Source: Rhodomicrobium sp. R_RK_3
Lineage (GTDB): Bacteria > Pseudomonadota > Alphaproteobacteria > Rhizobiales > Rhodomicrobiaceae
Assembly (NCBI RefSeq): GCF_002198715.1
Contig: NZ_MWLK01000038.1
Location: 1 to 64,000 of the forward strand
Reading direction: 5' to 3'
DNA length: 64,000 nucleotides
Positions 2,410 through 23,566 of the stretch are shown piece by piece. The stretch's first letter is position 1; each line of letters begins with the position of its first letter. Below the pieces are notes generated by a model. That model was not told where the DNA came from, searched no databases, and saw only the letters and a program-made list of their open reading frames with translations. The translations under genes and the position numbers were made by a program.

Positions 2410-3204
2410 TCAGACCTCGCCGATCAACTGCCGCGTCGCGGCGGCAACGTCGGCCTGGCGCATAAGACTTTCGCCGACCAGGAAGCAGCCGATGCCGGCC
2501 CGGCCGAGGCGCACGATGTCGGCATTGGCGAAAATGCCGCTCTCGGAAATCACGATGCGCTCATCCGGGATCTTCGCCGCGAGCTTTTCCGAGACCTCGA
2601 GGCTCGTCTCGAAGCTGCGCAGGTCGCGGTTGTTGATGCCGATCAGCTTGCCGTCGAGGGTGAGTGCGCTATCGAGTTCGGCCTCGTCATGCACCTCGAT
2701 CAGCGCGTCCATGCCGAGATCGCGCGCGGTCCCGATCAGGCGGCGGGCATCGGCATCGTCGATGGCGGCCATGATGATCAAAATGCAATCCGCGCCGAGC
2801 GCCCGCGCCTCAAAAACCTGATAGGGCTCGAACATAAAATCTTTGCGCAGCACAGGCAGTCCGGAGGCTTCGCGCGCGGCGGTGAGATATTCGGGCTTGC
2901 CCTGGAAGGAGGGGCCATCGGTCAAAACCGAGAGGCAGGTGGCGCCCCCTGCGGCATAGGCGCGGGCGAGCGCCGGCGGATCGAAATCCTCACGGATCAG
3001 CCCCTTCGACGGGCTCGCCTTCTTGATCTCGGCGATCAGGGCGGTGCGGCGCTCGCCGAGGCGCTTCTCAATGGCCGCCGCGAAGCTGCGCACGGGCGGG
3101 GCGGCGGCGGCGCGCCGCTCGACCTCCGCTTGCGGCACCGCGAGCTTGGCGGCCGCGATTTCCTCGCGCTTATAGCGCTCGATTTTGGCGAGGATGTTGC
3201 TCAT
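2410..3204 (-). CDS. trpC: indole-3-glycerol phosphate synthase
   Basis: A 264-aa TIM-barrel enzyme that converts CdRP to indole-3-glycerol phosphate in tryptophan biosynthesis. Family landmarks are clear: [20 protein letters not shown] at the start, [12 protein letters not shown] (substrate phosphate and catalytic Lys region), [53 protein letters not shown] and [13 protein letters not shown] 3204 gives the standard N-terminus. The usual partners trpD and trpF are not adjacent. It lies 176 bp downstream of groL in the same direction; a hairpin just after groL suggests it is not simply the last gene of the monooxygenase operon. Confidence 0.97.
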
Positions 3205-3340
3205 CGTCGATCGTCCATCTGCTGAAATCGCGTCCGTCTTAGCACAGGCGCCGTCGACGTCCATCGTCTGCGGGCGATGCTACCCGAATATTCCGGATCG
3301 CCCGGGACGCGCTACGACCGTAACGATGCCGCTATGTCGC

Positions 3341-3380: not shown

Positions 3381-5018
3381 TTACGCCCGGCCGAGCTTTT
3401 CCGCGCCGCCGCCGAGCGCGGGCCCGGCGGTGGGGTCGAAATCCTCGGGCTGCTTGGCGATCAGCGTGTCGGTGGTCAGGATCAGCCCGGCGACCGAGGC
3501 GGCGTTGCGCAGCGCGGTGGTCGCGACCTTGACCGGGTCCATGATCCCGGCTGTGGCGAGATCGAGCAACTCGCCGGTCCTCGCATCGAGGCCGACCGCG
3601 CCCTTGGCCTTCTGCACCCGCTTCAATTGCGCTGCGGCGTCCAGGCCGCAATTGCGCGCGATGGTCAAGAGCGGCTGGGCGAGCGCGCATTGCAGCAGCT
3701 CGACGCCGGTGCGGGTGCTGCCCGTTTGGCGGCCGATCAGCTCATCAAGCTCAGGCGCGATCCGCACCAGCGCGGTGCCGCCGCCGGGAACCACGCCCTC
3801 GGCGATGGCGGCGCGGGTCGCATTGATGGCGTCCTCGATCAATTGCAGCCGCCGCTTCTGCTCGACGGGCGTCGCGCCGCCGGCAAGAATCACCGCCGTG
3901 CCGCCCGACAGCTTGGCCAGCCGCTCCTGGAACTTGTCGCGCTCGATATTTTCCGGCGCGGCCTCCCATTGCCGCGTCACCTGCTCGCGGCGGGCGGCGA
4001 TGGCGATTTCGTCGCCCTCGCCGGCGGTAATGAGCGTGCGGTTGGCCGAGATGCGGACCTGCCGCGCGCCGCCGAGATCGGCGAGCTGAACCTGATCGAC
4101 CCTGCCGCCGAGATCGCGGGCGATGACGCGGCCGCCGGTCGCGATGGCGATGTCTTCCAGCATTGCCTTGCGCCAATGGCCATATTCGGGCGGGTTGATC
4201 GCGGCGATGGGCCGCTTGCTGGTCTCGCGCCGGGTGAGCAGATGGATCACCGCGCCGGGCGCGATGTCCTCGGCGATGATGAGCAGCGGGCGCTTGGCCT
4301 TCTCCGACAGCGCCAGCGCGGCGGCGAGTTCGTCCGGGCCGCCGATCTTGTGATCGGTGAGAAGGATCAGCGGGTGGTCGAGCACCACCTGCATCCGCTC
4401 GACATCGGTGACCATGTGGTGAGAGAGATAGCTGCGGTCGAAGGCCATGCCGTCGATGATCTCCAGCGCGGTATCGACGCCGACGCCGAATTGCACATCG
4501 ACGATGCCGTCCGCGCCGACGCGGGCAAAGGCTTCCGCCACCATGGCGCCGAGCCGTTCGTCATTCGCCGCGATGCTGGCCACGGCGCGCGCCTGTTCCG
4601 GCCCGTCCAGGTCGCGCGCGGAGCGGTTCAGCGCGGCGATGGCGGCTTCGGTGCCGATGGCGAGCCCTTCGACCAGTTCGACCGCATTGGCGCCCTTGGC
4701 GATGGCGGCGAGGCCCTGCTGCACGAGCGCATCCGCCAAGAGCGTCGCGGTGGTGGTGCCGTCACCCGCCACCTCGTTGGTCTGGCGCGAGACTTCGCGC
4801 ACGACCTGTACGCCCATATTCTCGAACGGGTCTTCCAGCTCGATTTCGGCGGCGATGCTGACGCCGTCGCGCGACACGATGGGCGAGCCGATGGGGCGGT
4901 CCATGAAGGCGTTCATGCCGCGCGGGCCGAGCGTGCCGCGCAGGGCGCGGGCCAGTTTCGCCACGCCCCGTCCGAGCGCTTCGCGGGCGGCTTCGTCGTG
5001 CAGCAGCATTTTCGGCAT
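3381..5018 (-). CDS. GroEL-like chaperonin dedicated to the diiron monooxygenase
   Basis: A 545-aa group I chaperonin. It has LGPRGMNAFMD, the ATP-site motif AGDGTTTAT (Asp86) and GIMDPVKVATTALRNAASVAG near the C-terminus. It is diverged from housekeeping GroEL: the N-terminus is MPKMLLHDEAAREAL, and the tail ends GGGAEKLGRA without Gly-Gly-Met repeats. There is no groES beside it. In actinobacterial propane/acetone monooxygenase clusters a GroEL-like protein (MimG) is needed for functional hydroxylase, so a role in folding PrmA is the natural reading. A strong Shine-Dalgarno (GGAGG) precedes the ATG and the gap to the upstream DUF59 gene is 24 bp, consistent with one operon. Confidence 0.93.
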   Translation of the reverse strand: MPKMLLHDEAAREALGRGVAKLARALRGTLGPRGMNAFMDRPIGSPIVSRDGVSIAAEIELEDPFENMGVQVVREVSRQTNEVAGDGTTTATLLADALVQQGLAAIAKGANAVELVEGLAIGTEAAIAALNRSARDLDGPEQARAVASIAANDERLGAMVAEAFARVGADGIVDVQFGVGVDTALEIIDGMAFDRSYLSHHMVTDVERMQVVLDHPLILLTDHKIGGPDELAAALALSEKAKRPLLIIAEDIAPGAVIHLLTRRETSKRPIAAINPPEYGHWRKAMLEDIAIATGGRVIARDLGGRVDQVQLADLGGARQVRISANRTLITAGEGDEIAIAARREQVTRQWEAAPENIERDKFQERLAKLSGGTAVILAGGATPVEQKRRLQLIEDAINATRAAIAEGVVPGGGTALVRIAPELDELIGRQTGSTRTGVELLQCALAQPLLTIARNCGLDAAAQLKRVQKAKGAVGLDARTGELLDLATAGIMDPVKVATTALRNAASVAGLILTTDTLIAKQPEDFDPTAGPALGGGAEKLGRA

Positions 5019-5042
5019 GGCGCGTCCTCCGGGCGGTTTTGG

Positions 5043-5810
5043 TTACGAGTGGGGGCGTTGCGATTTCAGCGGTGTGGTGGTGTCGAACTCGTAGCGCGCG
5101 GCGAGCAGGCCGGAGCAGAGCGCGCCGTTGAACTCGGCGTTGACGCGCACGCTGCGCAGGCGCTTGAGATGCGCGGCGAAGTCGGCTGGCGCGAGCGGTT
5201 GGCCCTCGGTGGTGACGAAGGCGAGGGCGTCGGCGGCGAGCGGCCCGGCGGCGTCGCGGCGTTCGAGATAGCGGGTGCGGGCGAGCGCGCCTGCCTCGTC
5301 GAGCGTGAGCGCGTCCAGTTCGGAGAGCGTCATCCGCGCCAGCGCATCCGGGGCAAAGCCGAGGTCGCGCAGATGCAGCAGCATCGCCTCCTGCCGCCGC
5401 TGGAACGCCTTCAGCAGGAAGATGCGCCTGACATCATCGAGGTTTCCGTCGGCCTCCTCGCCGAACGTATCGGCGAAGGAGCAGCCTTGCGCCATGCCGC
5501 GATTGATGGTCTCGGCATACATATGCTCGTCGAGCACCACCGAGACGGCGCTGACCCAGGGCAGCGCCGCGACCGCCGCGCGCATGTCGTCGGCCATCAT
5601 GAAAGCGAAATTCGGCGCGCACCAATAGGTCGGCAGGCGGAAGCGGATGCCGACGCGGCCATCCTCGCCGAGCGTGACGGCGCTGACGAACTTCATCTCC
5701 GTCACCGAGCGGTCGAGCTCGGGGTCGGTCACGCGCGAAAGGCTGTCCCACACCTCGGCAAGTCTTGAGGCATGGCTCATCGCTCCGGCGGAAGCTGGCT
5801 GCGTCGGCAT
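5043..5810 (-). CDS. DUF59/MIP18-type metal-sulfur assembly protein of the monooxygenase operon
   Basis: A 255-aa protein. The first 110 residues are a DUF59/MIP18 domain (VTDPELDRSVTEMKFV, then RLPTYWCAPNFAFMMADDM with a single conserved Cys), a fold linked to iron-sulfur maturation. The remaining 145 residues are helical and unassigned. Proteins of this design accompany propane monooxygenase genes, so a role in diiron or reductase cofactor assembly is likely but unproven. ATG 5810 (MPTQPAS) follows GGGAG at good spacing; an in-frame TTG lies two codons upstream. It starts 13 bp after the amidohydrolase stop. Confidence 0.88.
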   Translation of the reverse strand: MPTQPASAGAMSHASRLAEVWDSLSRVTDPELDRSVTEMKFVSAVTLGEDGRVGIRFRLPTYWCAPNFAFMMADDMRAAVAALPWVSAVSVVLDEHMYAETINRGMAQGCSFADTFGEEADGNLDDVRRIFLLKAFQRRQEAMLLHLRDLGFAPDALARMTLSELDALTLDEAGALARTRYLERRDAAGPLAADALAFVTTEGQPLAPADFAAHLKRLRSVRVNAEFNGALCSGLLAARYEFDTTTPLKSQRPHS

Positions 5811-5823
5811 CGTCAAGCTCCCG

Positions 5824-6828
5824 TCAGGCGGCGCGTTTCAGCTTGGCCTTCTGCGCATCGACGTCGATGCCGTAGAGCCGCGCCGCATTCAGGCCGAGGA
5901 TTTTCTTTTTCGCCTGCATGGTCAGCGGCACGCCCGTCTCCTTGACCACATCATCCGGCAGCTCGAAGGCCATGAACCGGTCGACGATCCATTTCGGCGT
6001 CCAGATGCCGTAGTCGCTGCCGTAGAGGATCTTGTCCTCGCCGACCCAGAACAGCAGCTCCGAGATCACATGCGCGAAATAGCCCGGGCGCGTGTGGATG
6101 AAGGGCAGGGCGACGGCGAGGCCGGCATAGACATTGGTCTCCTGCGTGGCGATCCAGCAGAAATCATCGAGGCGCGGCAGGCCGCAATGCTCGACGATGA
6201 AATTGAGGTCCTGGAACGACGTCGCAACGTCATCGACATCGGCGACGTCGAAGGCATCGCGGTTGAGGGGGATGATGGTCGGCCCCTTATGCACATGGAT
6301 GTTCCGGATGCCGAGCTTCTGCGCCTCTTCGAGGAAGCGGTAGCTCTCCTTGTCGGAGAGCTTGTAGCCCTTGGACTCGCCGCGCCATTCCGCCGTGTAG
6401 AGCTTGGCGCCGGTGATGTTGTATTTTTCCTTCAGCTCATGCATGTGCTCCAGCCCCTTCGTCCCGTCGCGCGGGTCGAAGGCGCCGTTCAGGATGAAGC
6501 GGTCGGGGTGGGTCTTCTTCAGCTCGGCATTGCGCTCGGTGGTGTTGAACCCGGATTTATAGAAGTCGGTGAGATATGTCGGCTGCAAAATCGCCATGTC
6601 GTCATAGCCGCGCACGAACAGGTCGTCATACATGGTGCGGGCGTCGTATTTCTCGAATTTCTCCTTCGGCCACCGCTCCTCCGGCGGGCTGAGATTGGTG
6701 TGATAGGCAAAGAAGCAGTCGATGAACTGCTTGCCGTGGATGTTCTTCTGATTGGCCGGGCTGCCGTCCCAGAAATGGGTGTGCCCGTCGATGACGAAGA
6801 TTTCCTCGCCCGTCTTGGTCCTGAACAT
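5824..6828 (-). CDS. amidohydrolase-2 family protein in the propane monooxygenase operon
   Basis: A 334-aa TIM-barrel metal-dependent hydrolase or decarboxylase-like protein. The metal-binding HxH occurs in DGHTHFWDGS (residues 14-23); later landmarks are VHKGPTIIPL, FIVEHCGLPRLDDF and LYGSDYGIW (the catalytic-Asp region). A strong Shine-Dalgarno (GAGGAGGAG) precedes ATG 6828. An amidohydrolase at this place is conserved in propane monooxygenase clusters. Its reaction is unknown; it may act on an oxidation product or help hydroxylase maturation. The neighbouring gaps are 39 and 13 bp, so it is cotranscribed. Confidence 0.9.
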   Translation of the reverse strand: MFRTKTGEEIFVIDGHTHFWDGSPANQKNIHGKQFIDCFFAYHTNLSPPEERWPKEKFEKYDARTMYDDLFVRGYDDMAILQPTYLTDFYKSGFNTTERNAELKKTHPDRFILNGAFDPRDGTKGLEHMHELKEKYNITGAKLYTAEWRGESKGYKLSDKESYRFLEEAQKLGIRNIHVHKGPTIIPLNRDAFDVADVDDVATSFQDLNFIVEHCGLPRLDDFCWIATQETNVYAGLAVALPFIHTRPGYFAHVISELLFWVGEDKILYGSDYGIWTPKWIVDRFMAFELPDDVVKETGVPLTMQAKKKILGLNAARLYGIDVDAQKAKLKRAA

Positions 6829-6867
6829 CGTCTCCTCCTCCTCGCCCTTGATTTTTTCTTGCGCCCG

Positions 6868-7227
6868 CTATTGCCCGATATACTGGAAGGCGTCCTCCAT
6901 CCGGCCGAACAGCACCACGGTCTCGTCGTCGACCATGACCATCCGGCCGTAATGGGTGGAGGTGGAAATCTCGAACAGATGCGGGGTCATTTCGCGCCCT
7001 AGCTCCTGGCTGATCTCGGGCATGCTGAAGACGAGCTTGCCCCGGCCGTCGATGCGGATCATCGCCGGCAGGTAGGTGACGATGACGCCCGGGTTGCGGC
7101 CCATCACCTCGGCGATGACGCGCGCCTCGACGCTGTCGTTCATGGTGATGCCGCACTCGTCGGAAATGGTCTCCTCGAACTGCACGTCCTTCATCGATTT
7201 GAAGATGCTGGTCTGCGCCTGGGACAT
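6868..7227 (-). CDS. prmD: propane monooxygenase coupling (effector) protein
   Basis: A 119-aa MmoB/DmpM family protein. Such proteins are cofactor-free and bind the hydroxylase near the diiron site to tune oxygen activation and electron transfer. Features include VQFEETISDECGITMNDSVE, ARVIAEVMGRNPGVIVTYLP and a C-terminal MVMVDDETVVLFGRME segment. Start ATG 7227 (MSQAQTSIF) is chosen because GGAG lies upstream and the two earlier Met codons give no better site. The order alpha, reductase, beta, coupling protein matches prmABCD and differs from the mmoXYBZDC order of soluble methane monooxygenase. Confidence 0.93.
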   Translation of the reverse strand: MSQAQTSIFKSMKDVQFEETISDECGITMNDSVEARVIAEVMGRNPGVIVTYLPAMIRIDGRGKLVFSMPEISQELGREMTPHLFEISTSTHYGRMVMVDDETVVLFGRMEDAFQYIGQ

Positions 7228-7259
7228 GGTCGGCTCCATCAATAGGGGTTTCGGGGCGC

Positions 7260-8357
7260 TCAGTTCGCCAAGCCGCCGGCCGGGTTCAATCCGATCTCGG
7301 AACAGATCGCGCCGACCCGGCTCTTGGCCTTGGCCAGCGCCTCCTGGAAGGTTGCGACCTTCACGCGCGGCTGCGACCAGATCGGCTGCAGGTTGTTGGC
7401 GGCGTCGAGCGCCAGCGCGCCATATTTGCCGAGCCAGCTCGAGAAGATGCCCCTGTTGTACTCGCCATATTGCGGGTCGGTGACGAGCAGGTTGATCAGC
7501 TCGACCGTGTTGGCCAGGTTACGCTCGTAATCCGCCTCCGCCGCCGAGACGACGGCGGGCGTGACGAAATCATTCTGCGCGGCGGCAAGCTGCATGACGA
7601 AGCCGGAGCGGAACAACTCGCCCACCAGCGGCTCGAAAACGATGTTCACGGCAAAATACTGCTCGAGATAATCTGACGCCCCCATGATCGACTCGATCAG
7701 CTTGCGCGTCGCCTGCCAGGTGGGGTCTTCGAGCCAATGCTTCTTGCCGGCGGCGGTGTCGAAGCCCGGGATGTCCAGCGCGATCTCGCTGAGATAGAGC
7801 GTGAGATCCTGGGCGAAGCGCAGCTTGTAGGAGGAATTGGTCAGGATCGCATTGTTGATCATCTGGGTGTAGCCGTAGCGCTGCGCCTGCATGGTCGCCG
7901 TGCCGAGGCCGAATTCGGCGTGCTTGTAAGCGCCGAGGTGATCCTGCAGCACCTTCACCCACGCCTTGTCGAAGCGGGCGGTCGCGCCGGATTTGCGGCC
8001 ATTGGCGATGACGTTCTGCACCATGCCGCAGATGGTCGATTGCCGCTGGTAATGGGTGCGCTCCCATTCCTCGTCGACGGCGCGAAACTTGTGCCAGTCA
8101 GCGCTTTTGACCTTGGTCCAGTCCTTGGAATAGGTCGGCGTGCCATCGGGGAAATTGATGATCCAGTCCTGGAGCAGGTAGCGCTCCGGATCGGGCTGCA
8201 CATCGACGGTCATGTCCTCGTAATGCGTCGCCTTGCGGCCCTTCGGCTCAAAGTAATTATATTTGCGGCTTTCCGAGCCGGCGAAGGAGGCGGCGCCCGC
8301 CGCGCCCGACTTGGTGGGGCTGGCGGTGTTGCTGTCAGGCTTCTGCTGGGCACCCAT
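7260..8357 (-). CDS. prmC: propane monooxygenase hydroxylase, beta (small) subunit
   Basis: A 365-aa subunit of the soluble diiron hydroxylase. It has the same ferritin-like helical fold as the alpha subunit but no metal ligands. Recognisable segments are RKYNYFEPKGRKATHYEDM, YLLQDWIINFPDGTPTY and DLTLYLSEIALDIPGF. ATG 8357 (MGAQQKPDS) sits behind AGGGAGGT; a longer reading frame adds 11 residues without support. It lies 36 bp after prmB and 32 bp before prmD. Confidence 0.93.
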   Translation of the reverse strand: MGAQQKPDSNTASPTKSGAAGAASFAGSESRKYNYFEPKGRKATHYEDMTVDVQPDPERYLLQDWIINFPDGTPTYSKDWTKVKSADWHKFRAVDEEWERTHYQRQSTICGMVQNVIANGRKSGATARFDKAWVKVLQDHLGAYKHAEFGLGTATMQAQRYGYTQMINNAILTNSSYKLRFAQDLTLYLSEIALDIPGFDTAAGKKHWLEDPTWQATRKLIESIMGASDYLEQYFAVNIVFEPLVGELFRSGFVMQLAAAQNDFVTPAVVSAAEADYERNLANTVELINLLVTDPQYGEYNRGIFSSWLGKYGALALDAANNLQPIWSQPRVKVATFQEALAKAKSRVGAICSEIGLNPAGGLAN

Positions 8358-8393
8358 CGTGACCTCCCTGGTGGTTCTGGTTGTTGGCACTCG

Positions 8394-9443
8394 CTAGCTG
8401 CTGGGCTGGGTGAACTTGTCGAAATGGATGTTGAACGGCTCGACGCCGGCCATCTGCAGGACCGGCAGCACCGCGTCGATCATCGCGGGAGGACCGCAGG
8501 CATAGGCGTCGATCTCGCCGCCGAGCTGCGCCGTGGCGAGATAGCGGCGCACGGTCTCGTGGATGAAGCCGCGCTCGCCATGCCAGCCCTCGGGCGGGGC
8601 ATCGGAAAGCGCGGGGATGAAGCGGAAGTCGTCGAGGCCGCGCGCAATGGCGGCGAATTCTTCGAGGTAGAACAGGTCGGCGGCGGTGCGCGCGCCGTAG
8701 AAGAAGCGGACGGGGCGCTGCTCGCCGCTCTCGATATGGTCGGCGAGCATCGACCAGAGCGGCGACATGCCCGAGCCGCCGCCGATCAGCAGCATCGGAC
8801 CGGGCCGCGCCTCGCGGCGGAAGCAGGTGCCGTAGGGGCCTTTGGCGGTGAGCCGGTCGCCGGGTTTCAGGCCGCCGTCGAGGCGCGCGGAAAAGGCGCC
8901 ATCCGGGTATTTCTTGATGATGAAGCTCAGCACTTCGGGCGAACTCGGCGCACTCGACATGGAGAAGGAGCGCGTGATCGCGGGCGTGTCCCCGGTCGCG
9001 GGAATGGTCAGATCGACATACTGCCCCGCCCAGAACTTTAGCGGTGCTTCAATAGCGACTTCCAAGAGCCGGATGTCCTGCGTCAGCGGCGACACCGCGC
9101 GCACTTCCGCCTCGTATGAGCGCACCGGGATCGAGCGGCGCAGCAGATCCTCGTCGAAATTCAGCAGCTCGACGATCAGATCGCTATAGGCGTGCGTCCG
9201 GCACAGGAGCACGTGATCCGTCTCCTTCTCGTAATCCGGCAGCGCAAAGGTCGAATATTTCATCAGCTCGATGTCGCCCTCGACGAGCAGCGACTTGCAG
9301 CTTCCGCACTGGCCCTCCTTGCAGCCATGCATCAGCGCGATGCCCTGGCGGAAGGCGGCTTCCAGCACGGTTTCGCCCTCCTCGACATCCATCTCGATGC
9401 CGACCGGTTCCAGCCTGACCGTGTGCATGTGCTTGAGCGGCAT
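8394..9443 (-). CDS. prmB: propane monooxygenase reductase
   Basis: A 349-aa NAD(P)H oxidoreductase that passes electrons to the hydroxylase. The N-terminal plant-type [2Fe-2S] domain has Cys41, Cys46, Cys49 and Cys81 (GCKEGQCGSC). The FAD-binding motif RSFSMSS starts at residue 158 and the nucleotide site is LLIGGGSGMSPLW near 218. GGAAGG precedes ATG 9443. The gene is separated from prmA by 74 bp that hold a strong hairpin, the largest gap between prmA and the end of the operon, which would let hydroxylase message exceed reductase message. Confidence 0.94.
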   Translation of the reverse strand: MPLKHMHTVRLEPVGIEMDVEEGETVLEAAFRQGIALMHGCKEGQCGSCKSLLVEGDIELMKYSTFALPDYEKETDHVLLCRTHAYSDLIVELLNFDEDLLRRSIPVRSYEAEVRAVSPLTQDIRLLEVAIEAPLKFWAGQYVDLTIPATGDTPAITRSFSMSSAPSSPEVLSFIIKKYPDGAFSARLDGGLKPGDRLTAKGPYGTCFRREARPGPMLLIGGGSGMSPLWSMLADHIESGEQRPVRFFYGARTAADLFYLEEFAAIARGLDDFRFIPALSDAPPEGWHGERGFIHETVRRYLATAQLGGEIDAYACGPPAMIDAVLPVLQMAGVEPFNIHFDKFTQPSS

Positions 9444-9478
9444 TCAGGACAGCCTTCCAACCAGAGCAGGAACCGGCG

Positions 9479-9508
9479 TTTGCGGGGAGCGCCCGTGCCC
9501 CCCGCAAA
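9479..9508 (-). terminator. intercistronic hairpin between prmA and prmB
   Basis: TTTGCGGGG (9479-9487) and CCCCGCAAA (9500-9508) form a perfect 9-bp stem with a 12-nt loop, starting 9 nt after the prmA stop. It lacks a T-tract, so it is better read as a message-stabilising or attenuating element than as a full terminator. Confidence 0.6.
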
Positions 9509-9517
9509 GCTTTCGCG

Positions 9518-11182
9518 TCAGATCGGCCGCATCGTGAAGCCCTTGCGGTATTCGGCGACGGCTTTCTCCCGGTCCTCGGGGCTCAAGGCGCGGATGCCGC
9601 GCAAGGGGCTCGCCAGCGTGTTGCCGCGCACATGGTCGAGCGTCCACATCTCCTTGTCGTCGAAGCGCAGATGCGGCTGCGGCACCAGCGTCTTGCCGTC
9701 GGGGCGGACGAAGCCGAGATCCTTGATGGCGTCGGCGAGGTCCCAGCCGTGGTAGCAGTCCTCCCATTCGCGCCGGCCGCTGAAGCGGCCCATGGCGGGC
9801 GTCGGGCGGCCCTCATACTCGGCGCCGAAGGCGACCTTATGCGTCCAGCGGCACTGGTCGGAGCAATAGGTGTAGAGCTTGCCGTCGACTTCGTCGGTGC
9901 ACATGTCCTCGCGGATCAGGCAGGGCACCATGCAGCTCCAGCAGCGATGCGGGTAGACATAGCCGCAATCGGTGTTGAACAGGATGTTCTGCTCGCCGGG
10001 ATGGCTGAGCTTCTCATACCATTTCCAGAAGGCGCCGAACTCGTTGTACCAGCCCGGATATTTGTGCTCGAACCACTCGAAGTCCTTCTCGGTCTGGGCC
10101 TCGATGCGCCAGAAATTCACCGGCCAGCCGACCGCGAAGAACTGCGCGGTCTTGTGGACGTAATTCTTCTTCACCAGCCGGTCCCAGGCCGCCGCGACGT
10201 CATCGTGATGGATCTTGATGCCGTATTTCTCCAGCGGCAGCATGTAGGTGCGGTAGTAGTCCTCATAGATCCAGCGATGCCACAGCTCGCTATAGGACTC
10301 CTTGCTTTTGTCGCGGTTGGTGGTGCCGTATTCGATGAAGGTGCCGATGGCGGCGTCGACGATGGCGTGGTTCTGCCAGAAGGCGTATCTCAGGTCGCGC
10401 TCGAGCAACTGATGGTTGGAAGGGTCGTTGATCATCGCCATCAGCATCGAATGGCCGTTGCCGATATGGCGGGATTCATCCGACTGCACCGACAGGAACA
10501 CCGTCGGCAGCGCGTAGTCGCCATTGCGGGCGGCCTCTGACGGCATGGCGACGAACAGCGTGTTGGTGAAGGCCGTTTCCGCGACCACTGTGAGGTAGAC
10601 ATTCGCCGCCGTGATGGCGTCGCCGGTCAAAAAGCCTTCGGCGAACTGGCGGCCGATGGTGGTCGCGTAGCACTTGCCGAAAGCGGCCTCGGTGATGTCG
10701 AAGCCGGCCGGATCGATGTAGTTCTCCATGTACCATTTCTTGAGGTTCATCTGGATGGTGGAGTGCCGGAACTCGTCGACCATCTGCATGGTGAAGCCGG
10801 TGCGCAGCTCCTCGCCGGGGGCGAGCCGCCCGACCATCGCCATCGAGCGCGCCGCCGAAATCTCCGGGAAGGGGATGATGGCGAGGAAGAGCTTCATCCA
10901 CTCGACCCAGCGCGGCTCGACATTGCGGAACATATCGCCGCGCAGCGCTGCATCGAGCGCGCCATAGACGCGGTTGTCCTTTTCCTCCTGCATCGGGAAA
11001 TAGGAGCGAAGCACCTGCTTCATCGGGTCTTTCGGGACTTTGGAAATCTTGTAGTCCGTGGGGAAGGTCATCGCCTCCTGGACATAGCTCGGCGTCCAGC
11101 CGAGATCGGCGACGCGGCTCGCGGCCTCACCGATGGAGATGCCCTTCTGCGCGGTGATCTTGTTCAGGGTCATGGGTGCCAT
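9518..11182 (-). CDS. prmA: propane monooxygenase hydroxylase, alpha (large) subunit
   Basis: A 554-aa catalytic subunit of a soluble diiron monooxygenase. All six iron ligands can be placed: Glu107, Glu137 and His140 (DEFRH), Glu202, Glu236 and His239 (DESRH). Their spacings (30, 65 and 34 residues between the Glu ligands) equal those of MmoX. Thr206 aligns with the active-site Thr213 of MmoX, and Gln144 replaces MmoX Cys151, as in non-methane members. ATG 11182 has AAGGAG 9 nt upstream; an in-frame TTG two codons earlier is less likely. The substrate is inferred from gene order prmABCD with ADH and GroEL partners, which is the propane 2-monooxygenase layout. Confidence 0.95.
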   Translation of the reverse strand: MAPMTLNKITAQKGISIGEAASRVADLGWTPSYVQEAMTFPTDYKISKVPKDPMKQVLRSYFPMQEEKDNRVYGALDAALRGDMFRNVEPRWVEWMKLFLAIIPFPEISAARSMAMVGRLAPGEELRTGFTMQMVDEFRHSTIQMNLKKWYMENYIDPAGFDITEAAFGKCYATTIGRQFAEGFLTGDAITAANVYLTVVAETAFTNTLFVAMPSEAARNGDYALPTVFLSVQSDESRHIGNGHSMLMAMINDPSNHQLLERDLRYAFWQNHAIVDAAIGTFIEYGTTNRDKSKESYSELWHRWIYEDYYRTYMLPLEKYGIKIHHDDVAAAWDRLVKKNYVHKTAQFFAVGWPVNFWRIEAQTEKDFEWFEHKYPGWYNEFGAFWKWYEKLSHPGEQNILFNTDCGYVYPHRCWSCMVPCLIREDMCTDEVDGKLYTYCSDQCRWTHKVAFGAEYEGRPTPAMGRFSGRREWEDCYHGWDLADAIKDLGFVRPDGKTLVPQPHLRFDDKEMWTLDHVRGNTLASPLRGIRALSPEDREKAVAEYRKGFTMRPI

Positions 11183-11219
11183 GTTCAAAACTCCTTCAAG
11201 GTCCGACTGCGCGCGGGCC

Positions 11220-11244
11220 GGCTGGAGGAACGAAGGCTCCAGCC
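11220..11244 (-). other. leader hairpin upstream of prmA
   Basis: GGCTGGAG (11220-11227) pairs with CTCCAGCC (11237-11244), an 8-bp stem with a 9-nt loop, ending about 38 nt before the prmA start. It may stabilise the prmA message or affect ribosome access. Confidence 0.45.
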
Positions 11245-11278
11245 CGCTTGGCGCGCGGATTCACGCTGTGTGATGCAT

Positions 11279-11340
11279 GCTACCGTCGGCATGCCCGACC
11301 TCTTCTCGAAGCTCGCACGCTACTGTCGGCGTGCCCGACC
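11279..11340. repeat. two 22-bp direct repeats upstream of prmA
   Basis: Copies at 11279-11300 and 11319-11340 differ at only two positions and are offset by 40 bp. Each contains the hairpin core GTCGGCRTGCCCGAC (5-bp stem, 5-nt loop). They lie between the 93-aa gene and prmA, where they could be RNA-processing or protein-binding sites. Confidence 0.7.
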
Positions 11341-11348
11341 AGCAGGCC

Positions 11349-11630
11349 TCAGCCCGGTTCCGCCCCGCCTTCATCGGAGCGCGGCCGGATCAGCGGCTTG
11401 CCTTCGGCGATGAAGCGCGCACACAAGAGCAGCGCGCCCATCGTGAAGTCCTTGCCGTGCGCCTTCAGCCCGGTATCGGCCACGAGGGCCAGGCGCACGA
11501 AGAAATCGTCCTTTAAGCGATCATCGCTCGTCAGCTCCGGCATCGGCTGGAAACCGGCGGCCGGCGGCGGTGCGTCTGGGGTTGCCGCCGCCGGCGCCAT
11601 TGCAGCCTGCCGGTTCCGTTTATTGCCCAT
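11349..11630 (-). CDS. uncharacterised 93-aa protein of the propane monooxygenase operon
   Basis: A small soluble protein beginning MGNKRNRQAAM. Residues 11-30 are an Ala/Pro-rich linker. The conserved-looking part is PELTSDDRLKDDFFVRLALV and then HGKDFTMGALLLCARFIAEG, predicted helical with one Cys. It starts 11 bp after the 113-aa gene stop and precedes prmA in the same direction, so it is very probably cotranscribed. I do not recognise a family. Its position suggests an accessory role in hydroxylase assembly, stability or regulation. Confidence 0.7.
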   Translation of the reverse strand: MGNKRNRQAAMAPAAATPDAPPPAAGFQPMPELTSDDRLKDDFFVRLALVADTGLKAHGKDFTMGALLLCARFIAEGKPLIRPRSDEGGAEPG

Positions 11631-11641
11631 CCAACTCTCCC

Positions 11642-11983
11642 CTATGCATGGCCCTGGCGCGGATCGCGCGTGGGCGGGGCCGCGCCATCCAATTCGGCCA
11701 GCATCCGGTCCAGCCATTCCCGCTCGACGGCGAATTTCTCGAGCTGCCGCGTGAGCAGCTCGAACTGCTTCGCCAAGCCTTCCGCCGCATCGCGCCGCGC
11801 CTCGGTCGCGTCCGGTGCGCCGGCGAGGCGCTTGGCGTGTTCCGCCTCGAGAGCCAGCCCGATCGACAGGCTCTCGAAATGCCGGCGCTTGGCGTCGATC
11901 TCCATCACCCTGAGAATCAGCCGGTTCCGCTCGGCGATGCGGGCTTCTTCCCGCGCATCGTCTCCGGGCGCGGGCGTCGTCAC
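11642..11983 (-). CDS. uncharacterised 113-aa coiled-coil protein of the propane monooxygenase operon
   Basis: A highly charged protein that looks almost wholly helical (LILRVMEIDAKRRHFESLS, then GLAKQFELLTRQLEKFAVER), with heptad-like spacing of Leu, Phe and Ile that suggests a coiled coil of about 80 residues. It has no signal peptide or Cys. The GTG start at 11983 overlaps the adh stop (GTGA), a translational-coupling arrangement, and the next gene begins 11 bp after its end. Function is unknown; it may be an assembly scaffold or regulatory partner. Confidence 0.72.
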   Translation of the reverse strand: MTTPAPGDDAREEARIAERNRLILRVMEIDAKRRHFESLSIGLALEAEHAKRLAGAPDATEARRDAAEGLAKQFELLTRQLEKFAVEREWLDRMLAELDGAAPPTRDPRQGHA

Positions 11984-13023
11984 GGGATCAGCACCGCTCG
12001 GCCCTTGATGCGGCCGTGATGCAAATCGTGCAGCGCCTCGTTCGCCTCGCTCAGCTTGTATTCGCGCGTCGCCAGATGCACCCGGCCGCGATCGGCCAGC
12101 GCCATCAGCTCAACCAGCTCGGCATAGGTGCCGACCAGATTGCCGACGATGGTCTTTTCCGAGGTGATCATGTCCATGGCCGGCAGGTCGATGCGGCCGC
12201 CATAGCCGACGATGTAATAGGCGCCGCCATTGCGGGTCATGGCGAGGCCGCGCGCGATGGCGTCCCCCTCGCCGACGAAATCGATGACGGCCTCGGCGCC
12301 CTTGCCTTTGGTCAGCTCCATGACGGCCGCAACCGGATCGGCCACGCCATTGATGAGGTGATGCGCCCCGCATTCCTCGGCCAGCTTGAGGGCGTTCTCC
12401 GAGCGGTCCACCACGATGATCTCGGCGGCGCAGAGCGCGCCCAGCACCTGGATGCCGATATGGCCGAGGCCGCCCGCGCCGATGACCACGGCATATTCGC
12501 CGGGCACCAGATGGCGCGAGGCCTTCTTGGCCGCGCGATAGGCGGTCAGCCCGGCATCGGTGTAGGGCGCAACATCCTTCGGCGCGAGGCTGCGGGGCAG
12601 TTTGATCAGCGCACGCTCGCCGGTCAGCAGATATTGCGCATAGCCGCCATTGGCATTGATGCCGGGAAAGCTGCTTTCGGCCGCGTGCATATCGTCGCCG
12701 CGGCGGCAGGCGAGGCAATGGCCGCTCGTCACCAGCGGATGGCAGATGACGGGATCGCCGACGCGCACGCTCGTCACCCCGCGCCCGATGGCCTCGACCC
12801 AGCCGGCATTCTCATGGCCCATGATGTAGGGGAGGGCGATGTCCACCTTGTCGCGCCAGATGCCCTCGACGATGTGCAGGTCCGTCCGGCAGACGCCCGC
12901 GCCGCCGACGCGCACGATGACGTCGGTGGCTTTCTTGATGACGGGATCGGCGACGTCCTCGAACTCCACGAAGCGGTCGGCGGCGAGCTGGGCGTCATAG
13001 CGGTGGAGGACGGCTGCTTTCAT
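11980..13023 (-). CDS. zinc-containing alcohol dehydrogenase of the propane pathway
   Basis: A 347-aa medium-chain dehydrogenase, first gene of the operon. It has the catalytic-zinc Cys in AGVCRTDLHIVEG, GHENAGWVEAIG, and the Rossmann motif VVIGAGGLGHIGIQVLGAL. The lobe that usually carries four structural-zinc cysteines reads GHCLACRRGDDMHAAESSF, with only two Cys. ATG 13023 (MKAAVLHRYDAQ) has GGGAG upstream; a longer frame adds 33 unsupported residues. In the pathway it should oxidise the secondary alcohol (propan-2-ol) to a ketone. A candidate sigma-54 promoter lies about 100 bp upstream. Confidence 0.93.
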   Translation of the reverse strand: MKAAVLHRYDAQLAADRFVEFEDVADPVIKKATDVIVRVGGAGVCRTDLHIVEGIWRDKVDIALPYIMGHENAGWVEAIGRGVTSVRVGDPVICHPLVTSGHCLACRRGDDMHAAESSFPGINANGGYAQYLLTGERALIKLPRSLAPKDVAPYTDAGLTAYRAAKKASRHLVPGEYAVVIGAGGLGHIGIQVLGALCAAEIIVVDRSENALKLAEECGAHHLINGVADPVAAVMELTKGKGAEAVIDFVGEGDAIARGLAMTRNGGAYYIVGYGGRIDLPAMDMITSEKTIVGNLVGTYAELVELMALADRGRVHLATREYKLSEANEALHDLHHGRIKGRAVLIP

Positions 13024-13118: not shown

Positions 13119-13134
13119 CCAAGTTTCATGCCAA
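13119..13134 (-). promoter_or_regulatory. candidate sigma-54 (-24/-12) promoter for the adh-prm operon
   Basis: Minus-strand TTGGCATGAAACTTGG matches the consensus TTGGCACG-N4-TTGC at all defined -24 bases except C7 and ends TTGG instead of TTGC at -12. Spacing is correct. It would start transcription roughly 85 nt before the adh ATG, and the divergent gene encodes a sigma-54 activator. Confidence 0.6.
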
Positions 13135-13186: not shown

Positions 13187-13224
13187 TGTTGTCTTTCGCA
13201 ACAATAGCCGGAACAAACTGTTGC
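13187..13224. promoter_or_regulatory. candidate upstream activator sites (TGTTG inverted repeats)
   Basis: TGTTG (13187-13191) faces CAACA (13199-13203), and GCAACA (13198-13203) faces TGTTGC (13219-13224); AACA (13212-13215) and TGTT (13219-13222) form a further pair. They lie about 50-90 bp upstream of the -24 element, a usual position for enhancer-binding proteins. The rest of 13024-13490 holds no convincing gene. Confidence 0.55.
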
Positions 13225-13490: not shown

Positions 13491-15383
13491 ATGGGAATTA
13501 GCGACACGGCGGCTCTCAGGGCCCACGGCATCCTACAGAAGAAGGGCAAGCCCTCGGCCGAGCTGCTGTCCGCCGACATCTATCAGAGCTGGCAGCGCTG
13601 TCTCGCGCTCGGCCTCGATCCGCGCCGACCGCCCGCGCCCCGCATCGCCGAGGCGCCGAAGCTGCAAGCGGCGCGGGAGAAGAGCGGCCTCACGCGCAAG
13701 CTGGCGCTCGCCGAGTTGCATGGGCTGCATGAGCAATTCGCCGGCACCAGCTTCATGATCGCCTTCGCCGATGCCGACTGCCTGCTGCTCGACGTGTTCT
13801 CCGATCCCGATTTCATGACCACCGCCCGCGCCGCCGGTTTGCAGCCGGGCGGCGTCTGGTCGGAAGACGCCTGCGGCACCAACGCGCTCGGCTCAGCCGC
13901 CTTCGACCGGCGGCCGATGATCGTGCACGGCGCGGAGCATTTCTTCGTCAGCCACCTCGATTTGACCTGCATTGCCCATCCGGTGTTCTCGCCCGACGGC
14001 GCGCTGGCCGGCGTGATCGACGCCTCCTCCTATACGCGCTCGCGGCAATATCACACGCAGGTGCTGGTCCGCTTCGCCGCCACCCAGATCGAGAACGGCC
14101 TGTTCCGCGACCGCCACCGCGACGACAGCATCATCGCCTTCCACCACCGCAGCGAATATCTGAACAGCCTCACCGCAGGGCTGCTGGCGCTGCGCTCGGA
14201 TGGCTGCGTCGTCGGCGCGAACAAGGAGGCGCGCAGTTTTCTGCACGGCCGCTCCTTCGCCGAGCCCGCCGAGTTCGAAGCGGTGTTCGCCACCGGCTTC
14301 GACGCTGTCTTCCGCGACCTGCGCCAGCGCTCCCCGGTCCGGCTGAAGGACCGCGCGGGCGCGTCCTTCTTCGCCGTGCTGGACCCGCTGCACCGGCGCG
14401 AGAAGCCGCCGCCAATCGCCATCGGCAAAATCGCGGGCACGGTGAAGCCGGGCTTCGTCGCGGATGACGAGCGCGTCGCCACCATCGTCGCGCGCGTCGA
14501 GGCGGCGGCGGCGCGCAAGCTGCCGATCCTGATCCGGGGCGAGACCGGCACCGGCAAGGAGCTGCTCGCCCGCCATGCCCACACCGCGAGCGGACGCAAG
14601 GGCGCGTTCGTTCCGGTGAATTGCGCCGCGCTCCCCGACAGCCTGATCGAGGCCGAGCTGTTCGGCTATGCCGAGGGCGCATTCACCGGCGCGCGGCGCG
14701 GCGGCTCGCTGGGCCTTGTCTGCGAGGCGGATGGCGGCACGCTGTTCCTCGACGAAATCGGCGACCTGCCGATGCCGCTGCAAGCCGTGCTGCTGCGGCT
14801 GCTCGACGACTGGACCGTGCGCCCGATCGGCGGCCAGCGCCGGACGGTCGACGTGCAACTGGTCTCGGCGACCAACGTCAAGCTCGACGCCGCCATCGCC
14901 GCCGGGCGCTTCCGCTCCGATCTCCTCTACCGTATGAACACGCTCGAAGTGTCCCTGCCGAGCCTTGCCGGGCGCGGCGACATCGAGGCCATTGCCCGCC
15001 ATCTGCTGGCGAGCCACGCGCCGGGCTGCAAGCTCACCCAGGGCGCGGTCGAGCATCTGGCGAGCCATGACTGGCCCGGCAATATCCGCGAGCTGCGCAA
15101 TGAATTGCTGCGCGCCAGCCTCGGCGCCATCGACGGCGTCATCGACCGGCCGCTGATCGAAGCCGCCTGCGAGCGCCGCGCAGCAACGGTGGACCTCAAT
15201 GCGCCGGCCGCCGCCGAGGCCTCGCTGCGCGATCTGCGCAAGGAACGGGTGCGCGCGACGCTCGCCGAGACCGGCGGCAATATCAGCCTAGCGGCCCGCC
15301 GGCTCGGCGTATCTCGCAATACGGTCTACCGCATCATCGGGGCTGGCATCGGCGCTGCGGACGAGCCGGCCGACGCCGGTTAG
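13491..15383 (+). CDS. AcoR-like sigma-54 dependent activator of the monooxygenase operon
   Basis: A 630-aa enhancer-binding protein. Residues 1-60 (SADIYQSWQRCLALGLDP) are the AcoR-type N-terminus. A GAF-like sensor follows (about 65-200, with GGVWSEDACGTNALG). The AAA+ domain has Walker A GETGTGKE at 350 and the sigma-54 contact loop GAFTGA at 396-401, then GGTLFLDEIGDLP. A Fis-type helix-turn-helix (ETGGNISLAARRLGVSRNTV) closes the protein. It is divergent from the adh-prm operon, and regulators of this class (PrmR, MimR) control propane monooxygenase genes elsewhere. The effector probably binds the GAF region. The ATG follows a purine-rich stretch. Confidence 0.94.
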   Translation: MGISDTAALRAHGILQKKGKPSAELLSADIYQSWQRCLALGLDPRRPPAPRIAEAPKLQAAREKSGLTRKLALAELHGLHEQFAGTSFMIAFADADCLLLDVFSDPDFMTTARAAGLQPGGVWSEDACGTNALGSAAFDRRPMIVHGAEHFFVSHLDLTCIAHPVFSPDGALAGVIDASSYTRSRQYHTQVLVRFAATQIENGLFRDRHRDDSIIAFHHRSEYLNSLTAGLLALRSDGCVVGANKEARSFLHGRSFAEPAEFEAVFATGFDAVFRDLRQRSPVRLKDRAGASFFAVLDPLHRREKPPPIAIGKIAGTVKPGFVADDERVATIVARVEAAAARKLPILIRGETGTGKELLARHAHTASGRKGAFVPVNCAALPDSLIEAELFGYAEGAFTGARRGGSLGLVCEADGGTLFLDEIGDLPMPLQAVLLRLLDDWTVRPIGGQRRTVDVQLVSATNVKLDAAIAAGRFRSDLLYRMNTLEVSLPSLAGRGDIEAIARHLLASHAPGCKLTQGAVEHLASHDWPGNIRELRNELLRASLGAIDGVIDRPLIEAACERRAATVDLNAPAAAEASLRDLRKERVRATLAETGGNISLAARRLGVSRNTVYRIIGAGIGAADEPADAG

Positions 15384-17266: not shown

Positions 17267-23566
<6,300 letters not shown>

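Follow-up and report, generated by a model that had tools for sequence, protein, structure and literature searches.

The stretch analysed here (the window) is the initial 64,000 bases of contig NZ_MWLK01000038.1 (94 kb) of Rhodomicrobium sp. R_RK_3, whose genome assembly is 5.79 Mb and 99.5% complete. Between positions 13023 and 3381, ten genes lie head to tail on the minus strand in the order adh-h1-h2-prmA-prmB-prmC-prmD-amidohydrolase-DUF59-groEL, and all ten reading frames are intact. A preliminary description of this DNA had claimed prmA to prmD in canonical order with amidohydrolase, DUF59 and GroEL genes; all were recovered by their Pfam families on the minus strand within 3381-13023. 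A gene for a sigma-54-dependent activator (13491-15383, plus strand; GAF, AAA+ and Fis helix-turn-helix domains, PF01590, PF00158 and PF02954), absent from the gene list of that description, lies divergent to the operon. We consider it highly probable that these genes form an operon under sigma-54 activation that encodes a Group V soluble diiron monooxygenase of the proteobacterial branch, together with a specialised GroEL, a probable DUF59 helper for the metal centre and the remnant of an h1-WD40-h2 cassette.

Gene content and enzyme class

The core of the operon consists of prmA (9518-11182, within an open reading frame (ORF) of 9518-11188), encoding the hydroxylase alpha subunit (Phenol_Hydrox, PF02332); prmB (8394-9443), encoding a 2Fe-2S/FAD/NAD reductase (PF00111, PF00970, PF00175); prmC (7260-8390), encoding the beta subunit (Phenol_Hydrox, PF02332, E 3e-77); and prmD (6868-7242), encoding a coupling/effector protein (MmoB_DmpM, PF02406). 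The two Phenol_Hydrox matches in the host genome are both inside the operon. Downstream are genes for an amidohydrolase-2 family protein (5824-6828; Amidohydro_2, PF04909, E 8e-49), a DUF59/MIP18-like protein with a helical C-terminal part (5043-5816; FeS_assembly_P, PF01883) and, last, a GroEL paralog of the PrmG/MimG type (3381-5018; Cpn60, PF00118). The first gene, adh (11980-13023), encodes a zinc-dependent medium-chain alcohol dehydrogenase (PF08240/PF00107) whose best solved relative is alcohol dehydrogenase 1h2b (E 5.9e-99); the secondary alcohol dehydrogenase 2xaa matches at E 1.3e-48. Between adh and prmA lie h1 (11642-11983), encoding a 113-residue protein from a GTG start that overlaps the adh stop, and h2 (11349-11630), encoding 93 residues with a conserved core at 11352-11543; both are recognised by homologs in prm loci. 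Start sites were refined by eye. The adh start is probably at 13023 (MKAAVLHRYD), as the ORF remains open to a TTG at 13122 that is probably too early. The ATG of h2 at 11630 is preceded by GGGGAG and leaves no overlap with h1, and the prmA ATG at 11182 is preceded by AAGGAG.

The order alpha subunit-reductase-beta subunit-coupling protein is that of Group V (PrmABCD) systems. Window PrmA has two E-x-x-H diiron motifs and two further glutamates, and the six diiron ligands (E109, E139, H142, E204, E238 and H241) are kept in all 13 alpha-subunit rows compared and are invariant in alignment A2. No gamma subunit family (MmoZ, of the group III soluble methane monooxygenases (sMMO)) was detected among the ten operon proteins scanned with Pfam. 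Window PrmA is 92% identical to that of Bradyrhizobium BTAi1 (L016), 79% to that of Methylocella tundrae (L010) and 63-64% to the Rhodococcus plasmid copies L013 and L012. Identity drops to 38-40% for Rhodococcus ruber YYL, Mycobacterium dioxanotrophicus and Nocardioides JS614, to 31-33% for two sMMO-type rows and to 25% for the Xanthobacter Py2 row, the functional types of these outgroup alpha subunits being our assumption.

In a PrmA tree of 96 rows, built with a quick method and with long deep branches that are unsafe, the window falls inside a clade of 86 rows, proteobacterial apart from one record labelled Mycobacterium, and the sister of this clade is formed by two Rhodococcus rows (SH-like approximate likelihood ratio test, 99-100). 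The rows leave out Gordonia, RHA1 and M. smegmatis sequences. Alpha- and betaproteobacterial rows are interleaved, as expected if the cluster moves. PrmD from Rhodococcus L013 scores 177.3 bits against the NCBIfam MimD equivalog (NF045941; cut-off 150) and thereby provides a Group V anchor for the tree. Window PrmD scores 112.8 bits, below this cut-off, so the enzyme can be assigned to Group V, is not proven to be a propane 2-monooxygenase, and cannot inherit that label, a point that tells against our reading of the operon. The phylogenetic comparison proposed in the preliminary description thus places the window with PrmA/MimA-type rows and not with groups I-IV or VI. Its assignment to PrmABCD holds by Pfam families, gene order and diiron ligands, and by these sequence criteria the operon encodes a Group V soluble diiron monooxygenase, from a large proteobacterial branch of that group. 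A record named Mycobacterium sp. KBS0706 (L029) has a PrmA and a layout that sit within the proteobacterial clade; its name may be wrong or the contig foreign.

Relatives were collected by scanning genome contigs with PrmA and retaining the best 80 of 317 relatives, at 81-92% identity. Together with six plasmid loci (L008-L013), L014 and the window, these give 88 loci, and counts over the 80 or 88 describe close relatives only. Amidohydrolase relatives were present in 81 of the 88, DUF59 in 79, GroEL in 84 and alcohol dehydrogenase in 78, with some misses due to contig ends. The position of adh ahead of the core had been described as unusual, which the relatives do not support: of the 88 loci, 49 have an alcohol dehydrogenase of at least 45% identity upstream of prmA in the same orientation, 26 have one downstream and 3 have one upstream in the opposite orientation; the search found none in the other 10, some of them truncated by contig ends. 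The published accessory set is similar. Actinobacterial clusters conserve a metal-dependent hydrolase, a metal-sulfur cluster biosynthetic enzyme, an alcohol dehydrogenase and GroEL, with a Fis-family regulator in some (PMC4428276), and the legend to Figure 5 of PMC9213486 lists an amidohydrolase, an iron-sulfur cluster assembly protein and a chaperone; that legend also marks hypothetical genes. Since the same genes recur in print and across loci, the operon itself is a further member of an already described kind, with a core layout published for the group.

The actinobacterial prm/mim clusters (Gordonia TY-5, Rhodococcus RHA1 and BCP1, Mycobacterium mimABCD) share the A-B-C-D order and the accessory set with the window, but their adh follows the DUF59 gene whereas it is first in the window, which also adds h1 and h2. 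The proteobacterial clusters (Bradyrhizobium sp. BTAi1 and relatives, Caballeronia, Mesorhizobium, Rhodobacterales) have the same gene set, with PrmA up to 92% identical. The Bradyrhizobium-type loci also have the same order, including h1-h2 without a WD40 gene, while other proteobacterial loci have a WD40 gene between h1 and h2, a divergent cassette, or adh past groEL. The Methylocella propane monooxygenase cluster shares prmABCD-groEL-sigma-54 regulator with the window. However, M. tundrae has no h2 or DUF59 match on its plasmid record, to which the search was confined, and no amidohydrolase or adh relative within its 23.7-kb locus. Two other sequences, L149 and L151, share with L010 this leaner arrangement of prmABCD-groEL-regulator with no amidohydrolase, DUF59, adh or h2 relatives in the stretches examined; since two of the three are plasmid records (L010, L149) and the third is a contig of 10 kb (L151), the remaining genes may lie elsewhere. 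The sMMO cluster (mmoXYBZDC-G-R) has a diiron hydroxylase, a dedicated GroEL and sigma-54 regulation in common with the window (in part after PMC7994243); it differs in its alpha subunit (31-33% identity) and in its gamma subunit family, which was not detected among the ten operon proteins of the window.

Group V prmA genes also occur on Rhodococcus plasmids (L012 and L013; 63-64% identity to the window), in contrast to a survey that reports all group 5 prmA genes of its set as chromosomal (PMC11057499). On the Rhodococcus aetherivorans BW2 plasmid (L012), relatives of prmA, the amidohydrolase, DUF59, adh and groEL genes are present, and relatives of prmB, prmC and prmD were not found in the 23-kb locus.

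The GroEL paralog and the DUF59 protein

The host genome encodes two other GroELs, which share 76% identity and both have a GroES-like ORF close by. The operon GroEL is 40.9% and 41.3% identical to them. At the sites equivalent to Y203/F204 of the E. coli protein, which we take to function in client and GroES binding, the housekeeping copies read PYF and the operon copy HHM. Among GroELs from prm loci, 79/82 have His and 81/82 have Met at these positions; those without His are two Rhodococcus copies and the M. dioxanotrophicus copy, and the actinobacterial L012 and L013 have Tyr-Met where the window has His-Met. The operon GroEL ends in DPTAGPALGGGAEKLGRA instead of a GGM tail, and GGM is found near the end of only 2/82 locus GroELs. 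No GroES-like ORF was found in the 88 prm loci. The dedicated GroEL of the preliminary description is therefore confirmed as a diverged paralog beside the monooxygenase, distinct from the housekeeping copies, and its sequence identifies it as a specialised MimG/PrmG-type paralog. For mycobacterial enzymes a dedicated GroEL is reported to be required for active hydroxylase (PMC7994243).

The model of the DUF59 protein (257 residues; mean predicted local distance difference test (pLDDT) score 91.6) has a DUF59 fold in its N-terminal part, and the window protein has a fold of the CIAO2/MIP18 type. VIA-align pairs the model best with chains from CIAO1-CIAO2B entries (Z 11.3-11.6; root-mean-square deviation 3.4-7.2 over 109-121 residues), the matched chains being CIAO2B as judged by chain length. 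Foldseek ranks bacterial DUF59 proteins first. Cys66 and Cys234 are invariant in 46 sequences. From its family, the protein is inferred to act in assembly of the metal centre.

The h1-WD40-h2 cassette

Homologs of h1 were found in 59/88 prm loci, and homologs of h2, using a profile built up from the window protein, in 74/88. A gene for a WD40 protein is present in 59/88 and usually stands between them (h1-WD40-h2). It is absent from the window and from all ten of the nearest Bradyrhizobium-type loci (L015-L024), and a search of the host genome gave only partial, weak WD40 matches (best 34.7 bits). Where h2 is accompanied by another cassette member (73 loci), it comes last in 70; gene order was read from stop-to-stop frames, and the three odd orders may be artefacts. 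Judged by this arrangement, window h1 and h2 are what remains of a conserved h1-WD40-h2 cassette. A literature search returned no paper containing both "propane monooxygenase" and "WD40", with most subscription papers outside its reach.

Both proteins are under constraint. h1 looks coiled-coil-like by eye and has a median ratio of nonsynonymous to synonymous substitution (dN/dS) of 0.20-0.24 in three clades of relatives. h2 homologs have a median length of 62 residues by nearest ATG, many with an AGGAGG-like site ahead, and a conserved core of about 60 residues in which K11, F33, G36 and A42 are invariant across 54 aligned sequences. Median dN/dS for h2 is 0.095, 0.25 and 0.33 in three clades, compared to 0.02-0.04 for PrmA, all well under 1. 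The AlphaFold model of h2 is a helical hairpin (helices 6-29 and 31-47; mean pLDDT 86.8). Foldseek matched this model to PDB entries at E 6.6 at best, a result that speaks neither for novelty nor for kinship. Window h2 has no Pfam match at E up to 1 and other members have only scattered weak matches (E 0.03 or worse); the idea that h2 is a homolog of a known small subunit was rejected on these grounds.

The presence of h2 follows that of the enzyme beyond the prm locus itself. For the 14 loci without a nearby h2, 11 whole genomes and three plasmid records were searched, and 10/11 genomes have h2 elsewhere; it was not found in the remaining genome (a 2.6-Mb metagenome bin) nor on the three prm plasmid records. 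At 12 distal or separated h2 sites, a WD40 relative directly precedes h2 in 10, and 8 of the sites follow a sigma-54 regulator and groEL. The same order was sampled with 397 genomes: 21 have h2, 21 have a close PrmA (E at most 1e-150) and 20 have both (hypergeometric 1.8e-31, a statistic that ignores kinship and linkage). One exception, G214, lacks a close PrmA and has a remnant of h2 interrupted by three stops; the other, G193, has PrmA without h2. In a sample of 398 genomes from the phylum, h2 was found in 6, four of which have a close PrmA. The other two are G635, whose match of 27 residues (E 4.7e-5) is probably due to chance, and G706, with a broken PrmA beside h2. In G706 (L150, 7648-9955), prmA pieces in two frames with stops lie beside h2 and a WD40 fragment, as in a decaying prm cluster. 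h2 was not found in ten sampled genomes with only other diiron monooxygenases, nor in G007 and G034. The order and phylum samples overlap in genomes, and G406 and G405 of the distal-h2 search are G044 and G351 of the order sample.

The cassette lies on the opposite strand to prmA in 27 loci, 26 of which were examined (L014 was left out). A consensus sigma-54 site points toward prmA in 22/26 and toward the cassette in 1/26, suggesting that the cassette in divergent loci is probably not under the prm promoter, although a missing consensus match is no proof of separate control. This pattern is more easily explained by an assembly or control factor than by a stoichiometric subunit. In plasmid pAMI4 of Paracoccus aminophilus (L011), a gene (6834-8096) annotated as an RNA polymerase sigma-54 factor adjoins the h2/WD40 cassette.

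Taken together, co-occurrence, selection, retention through rearrangement and separate promoters suggest that h2 most likely serves the Group V enzyme in its assembly or control. As a fuller and tentative proposal, to which we give appreciably less than even weight, h2 with h1 and usually the WD40 protein would be a dedicated, required accessory of proteobacterial Group V enzymes: an undescribed small helical factor, acting in low amount, that assembles or restrains PrmA-PrmC, possibly with the specialised GroEL. Three observations speak against our overall reading of the operon. The window member gives the lowest-scoring of the 74 h2 profile matches, it differs at S10 and M25, two of seven nearly invariant positions, and the G193 genome has PrmA without h2.

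h1 and h2 could instead be incidental neighbours that travel with the prm island and have no role for the enzyme. They are usually linked to the cluster, so the co-occurrence is partly linkage; G193 shows that PrmA can occur without h2; and h2 was found neither on the three prm plasmid records nor on an Azospirillum plasmid, in a search that covered the plasmids of these strains. However, h2 is kept across three layouts (same strand before prmA, divergent, and downstream of groEL), its median dN/dS of 0.095-0.33 indicates purifying selection, and it is present in 20/21 PrmA genomes of the order. We therefore regard incidental linkage as unlikely.

The fold of the DUF59 protein raises another explanation, in which the WD40 and DUF59 proteins would act together like the eukaryotic cytosolic iron-sulfur protein assembly (CIA) targeting complex (CIAO1 plus CIAO2), as its bacterial analogue, and deliver iron or Fe-S to the enzyme. 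The DUF59 model matches CIAO1-CIAO2B chains (Z 11.3-11.6) and the WD40 profile matches CIAO1 (E 9.5e-18), but 13 chains fit that profile better than CIAO1 and no common C-terminal client motif was seen. Furthermore, the partners are unlinked: the window keeps DUF59 in a cluster without the WD40 gene, in a host with only the weak partial WD40 matches (best 34.7 bits) noted above, while WD40 and h2 are kept in G760, G397 and G398, genomes without a DUF59-profile match. Attractive by fold, such a complex was rejected as a general model and is in our view improbable.

Regulation, mobility and physiological role

All ten of the relatives L015-L024 have a canonical sigma-54 site 80-87 bases ahead of adh. 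The candidate -24/-12 promoter of the window, TTGGCATGAAACTTGGA (13134-13118, minus strand), has two mismatches, with GG instead of GC in a poor -12 element. Scanning the whole window for sigma-54 sites gave 31 matches compared to a mean of 60 in shuffled sequence, so the window site is backed only by its place and by the relatives. The poor -12 element and the low count of the scan tell against our reading of the operon. An inverted repeat at 13198-13224 was considered as the activator site and rejected, its exact pattern occurring in the window only and not in the relatives.

The poor -12 element, the absent WD40 gene and the departure of window h2 from two nearly invariant positions could together mean that the window operon is decaying, with a weakened promoter, a lost WD40 gene and a drifting h2. 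Against this, the ten reading frames are intact and the diiron ligands are kept, and the WD40 gene is likewise absent from L015-L024, whose promoters look canonical. Decay is very unlikely on this evidence.

The preliminary description had also proposed an alphaproteobacterium-like host and a transferable unit. The host assignment was correct, and same-order genomes include Bradyrhizobium sp. STM 3843 (L067). Transferability is upheld in part. A close PrmA occurs in only 21/397 genomes of the order, a patchy distribution; seven other genomes of the same family yielded one PrmA match, at 32% identity; 20 plasmid records, in a plasmid-only collection, carry PrmA of at least 60% identity; and the PrmA tree is interleaved. 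On the other side, GC content is 0.61-0.68 across the operon and 0.64-0.69 outside it (first 30 kb), a tRNA scan of the window found no tRNA gene, and no integrase or transposase was found among nine neighbouring proteins scanned. In L011, an IS5-like transposase gene (13934-14863) lies between prmB and prmC. In the window, trpC (indole-3-glycerol phosphate synthase; 2410-3264, minus strand) follows on the same strand 116 bases past groEL, so the operon adjoins a housekeeping gene. In an ORF of 2099 residues (17267-23566, plus strand), some twelve similar repeats precede histidine-kinase- and receiver-like sequence; from its translation alone, this ORF looks like a poly-HAMP hybrid kinase. An Rfam scan of the window at the gathering threshold gave no match.

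The enzyme itself is expected to function like the known Group V members. In the mechanism that we propose, the sigma-54 activator would switch on the operon, the specialised GroEL would fold the hydroxylase, the DUF59 protein would probably aid assembly of its metal centre, and h2 would most likely act in its assembly or control. PrmB would pass electrons from NADH via FAD and 2Fe-2S to the PrmA-PrmC diiron hydroxylase, gated by PrmD, and the alcohol product would then be oxidised by the operon alcohol dehydrogenase.

A short alkane is the inferred substrate. The same enzyme family may instead serve a physiological substrate other than propane, such as acetone, phenol-like compounds or another small volatile, with no growth on propane. 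Many carriers among the best 80 loci are rhizobia, Burkholderiales and Rhodobacterales, groups that are not known as propane users, and window PrmD is below the propane 2-monooxygenase equivalog cut-off. Related Mim/Prm enzymes are needed for acetone metabolism and can oxidise phenol (PMC8394569). Conversely, the studied Group V members are tied to propane (PMC11057499, PMC9213486), and the operon retains an alcohol dehydrogenase. A search for acetone carboxylase gamma (PF08882) gave no match in the host genome and none in any control either. We judge a non-propane substrate possible but doubtful. The Methylocella silvestris enzyme is reported to yield mostly 1-propanol (PMC7364539), another point against transferring the propane 2-monooxygenase label.

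The core of this operon was already known; the interest lies in the undescribed h1/h2 pair, with h2 lacking a Pfam family. Active soluble diiron monooxygenases are difficult to obtain in foreign hosts, for which absent helper proteins are often blamed. h2 occurs with one such enzyme in both alpha- and betaproteobacteria but was not detected in the sampled genomes that have only other diiron monooxygenases, which makes it a concrete candidate for a helper of this kind. The breadth of carriers, including many Bradyrhizobium, Mesorhizobium, Caballeronia and Rhodobacterales, bears on how widely the oxidation of short alkanes or related gases may be spread in soils and the sea.

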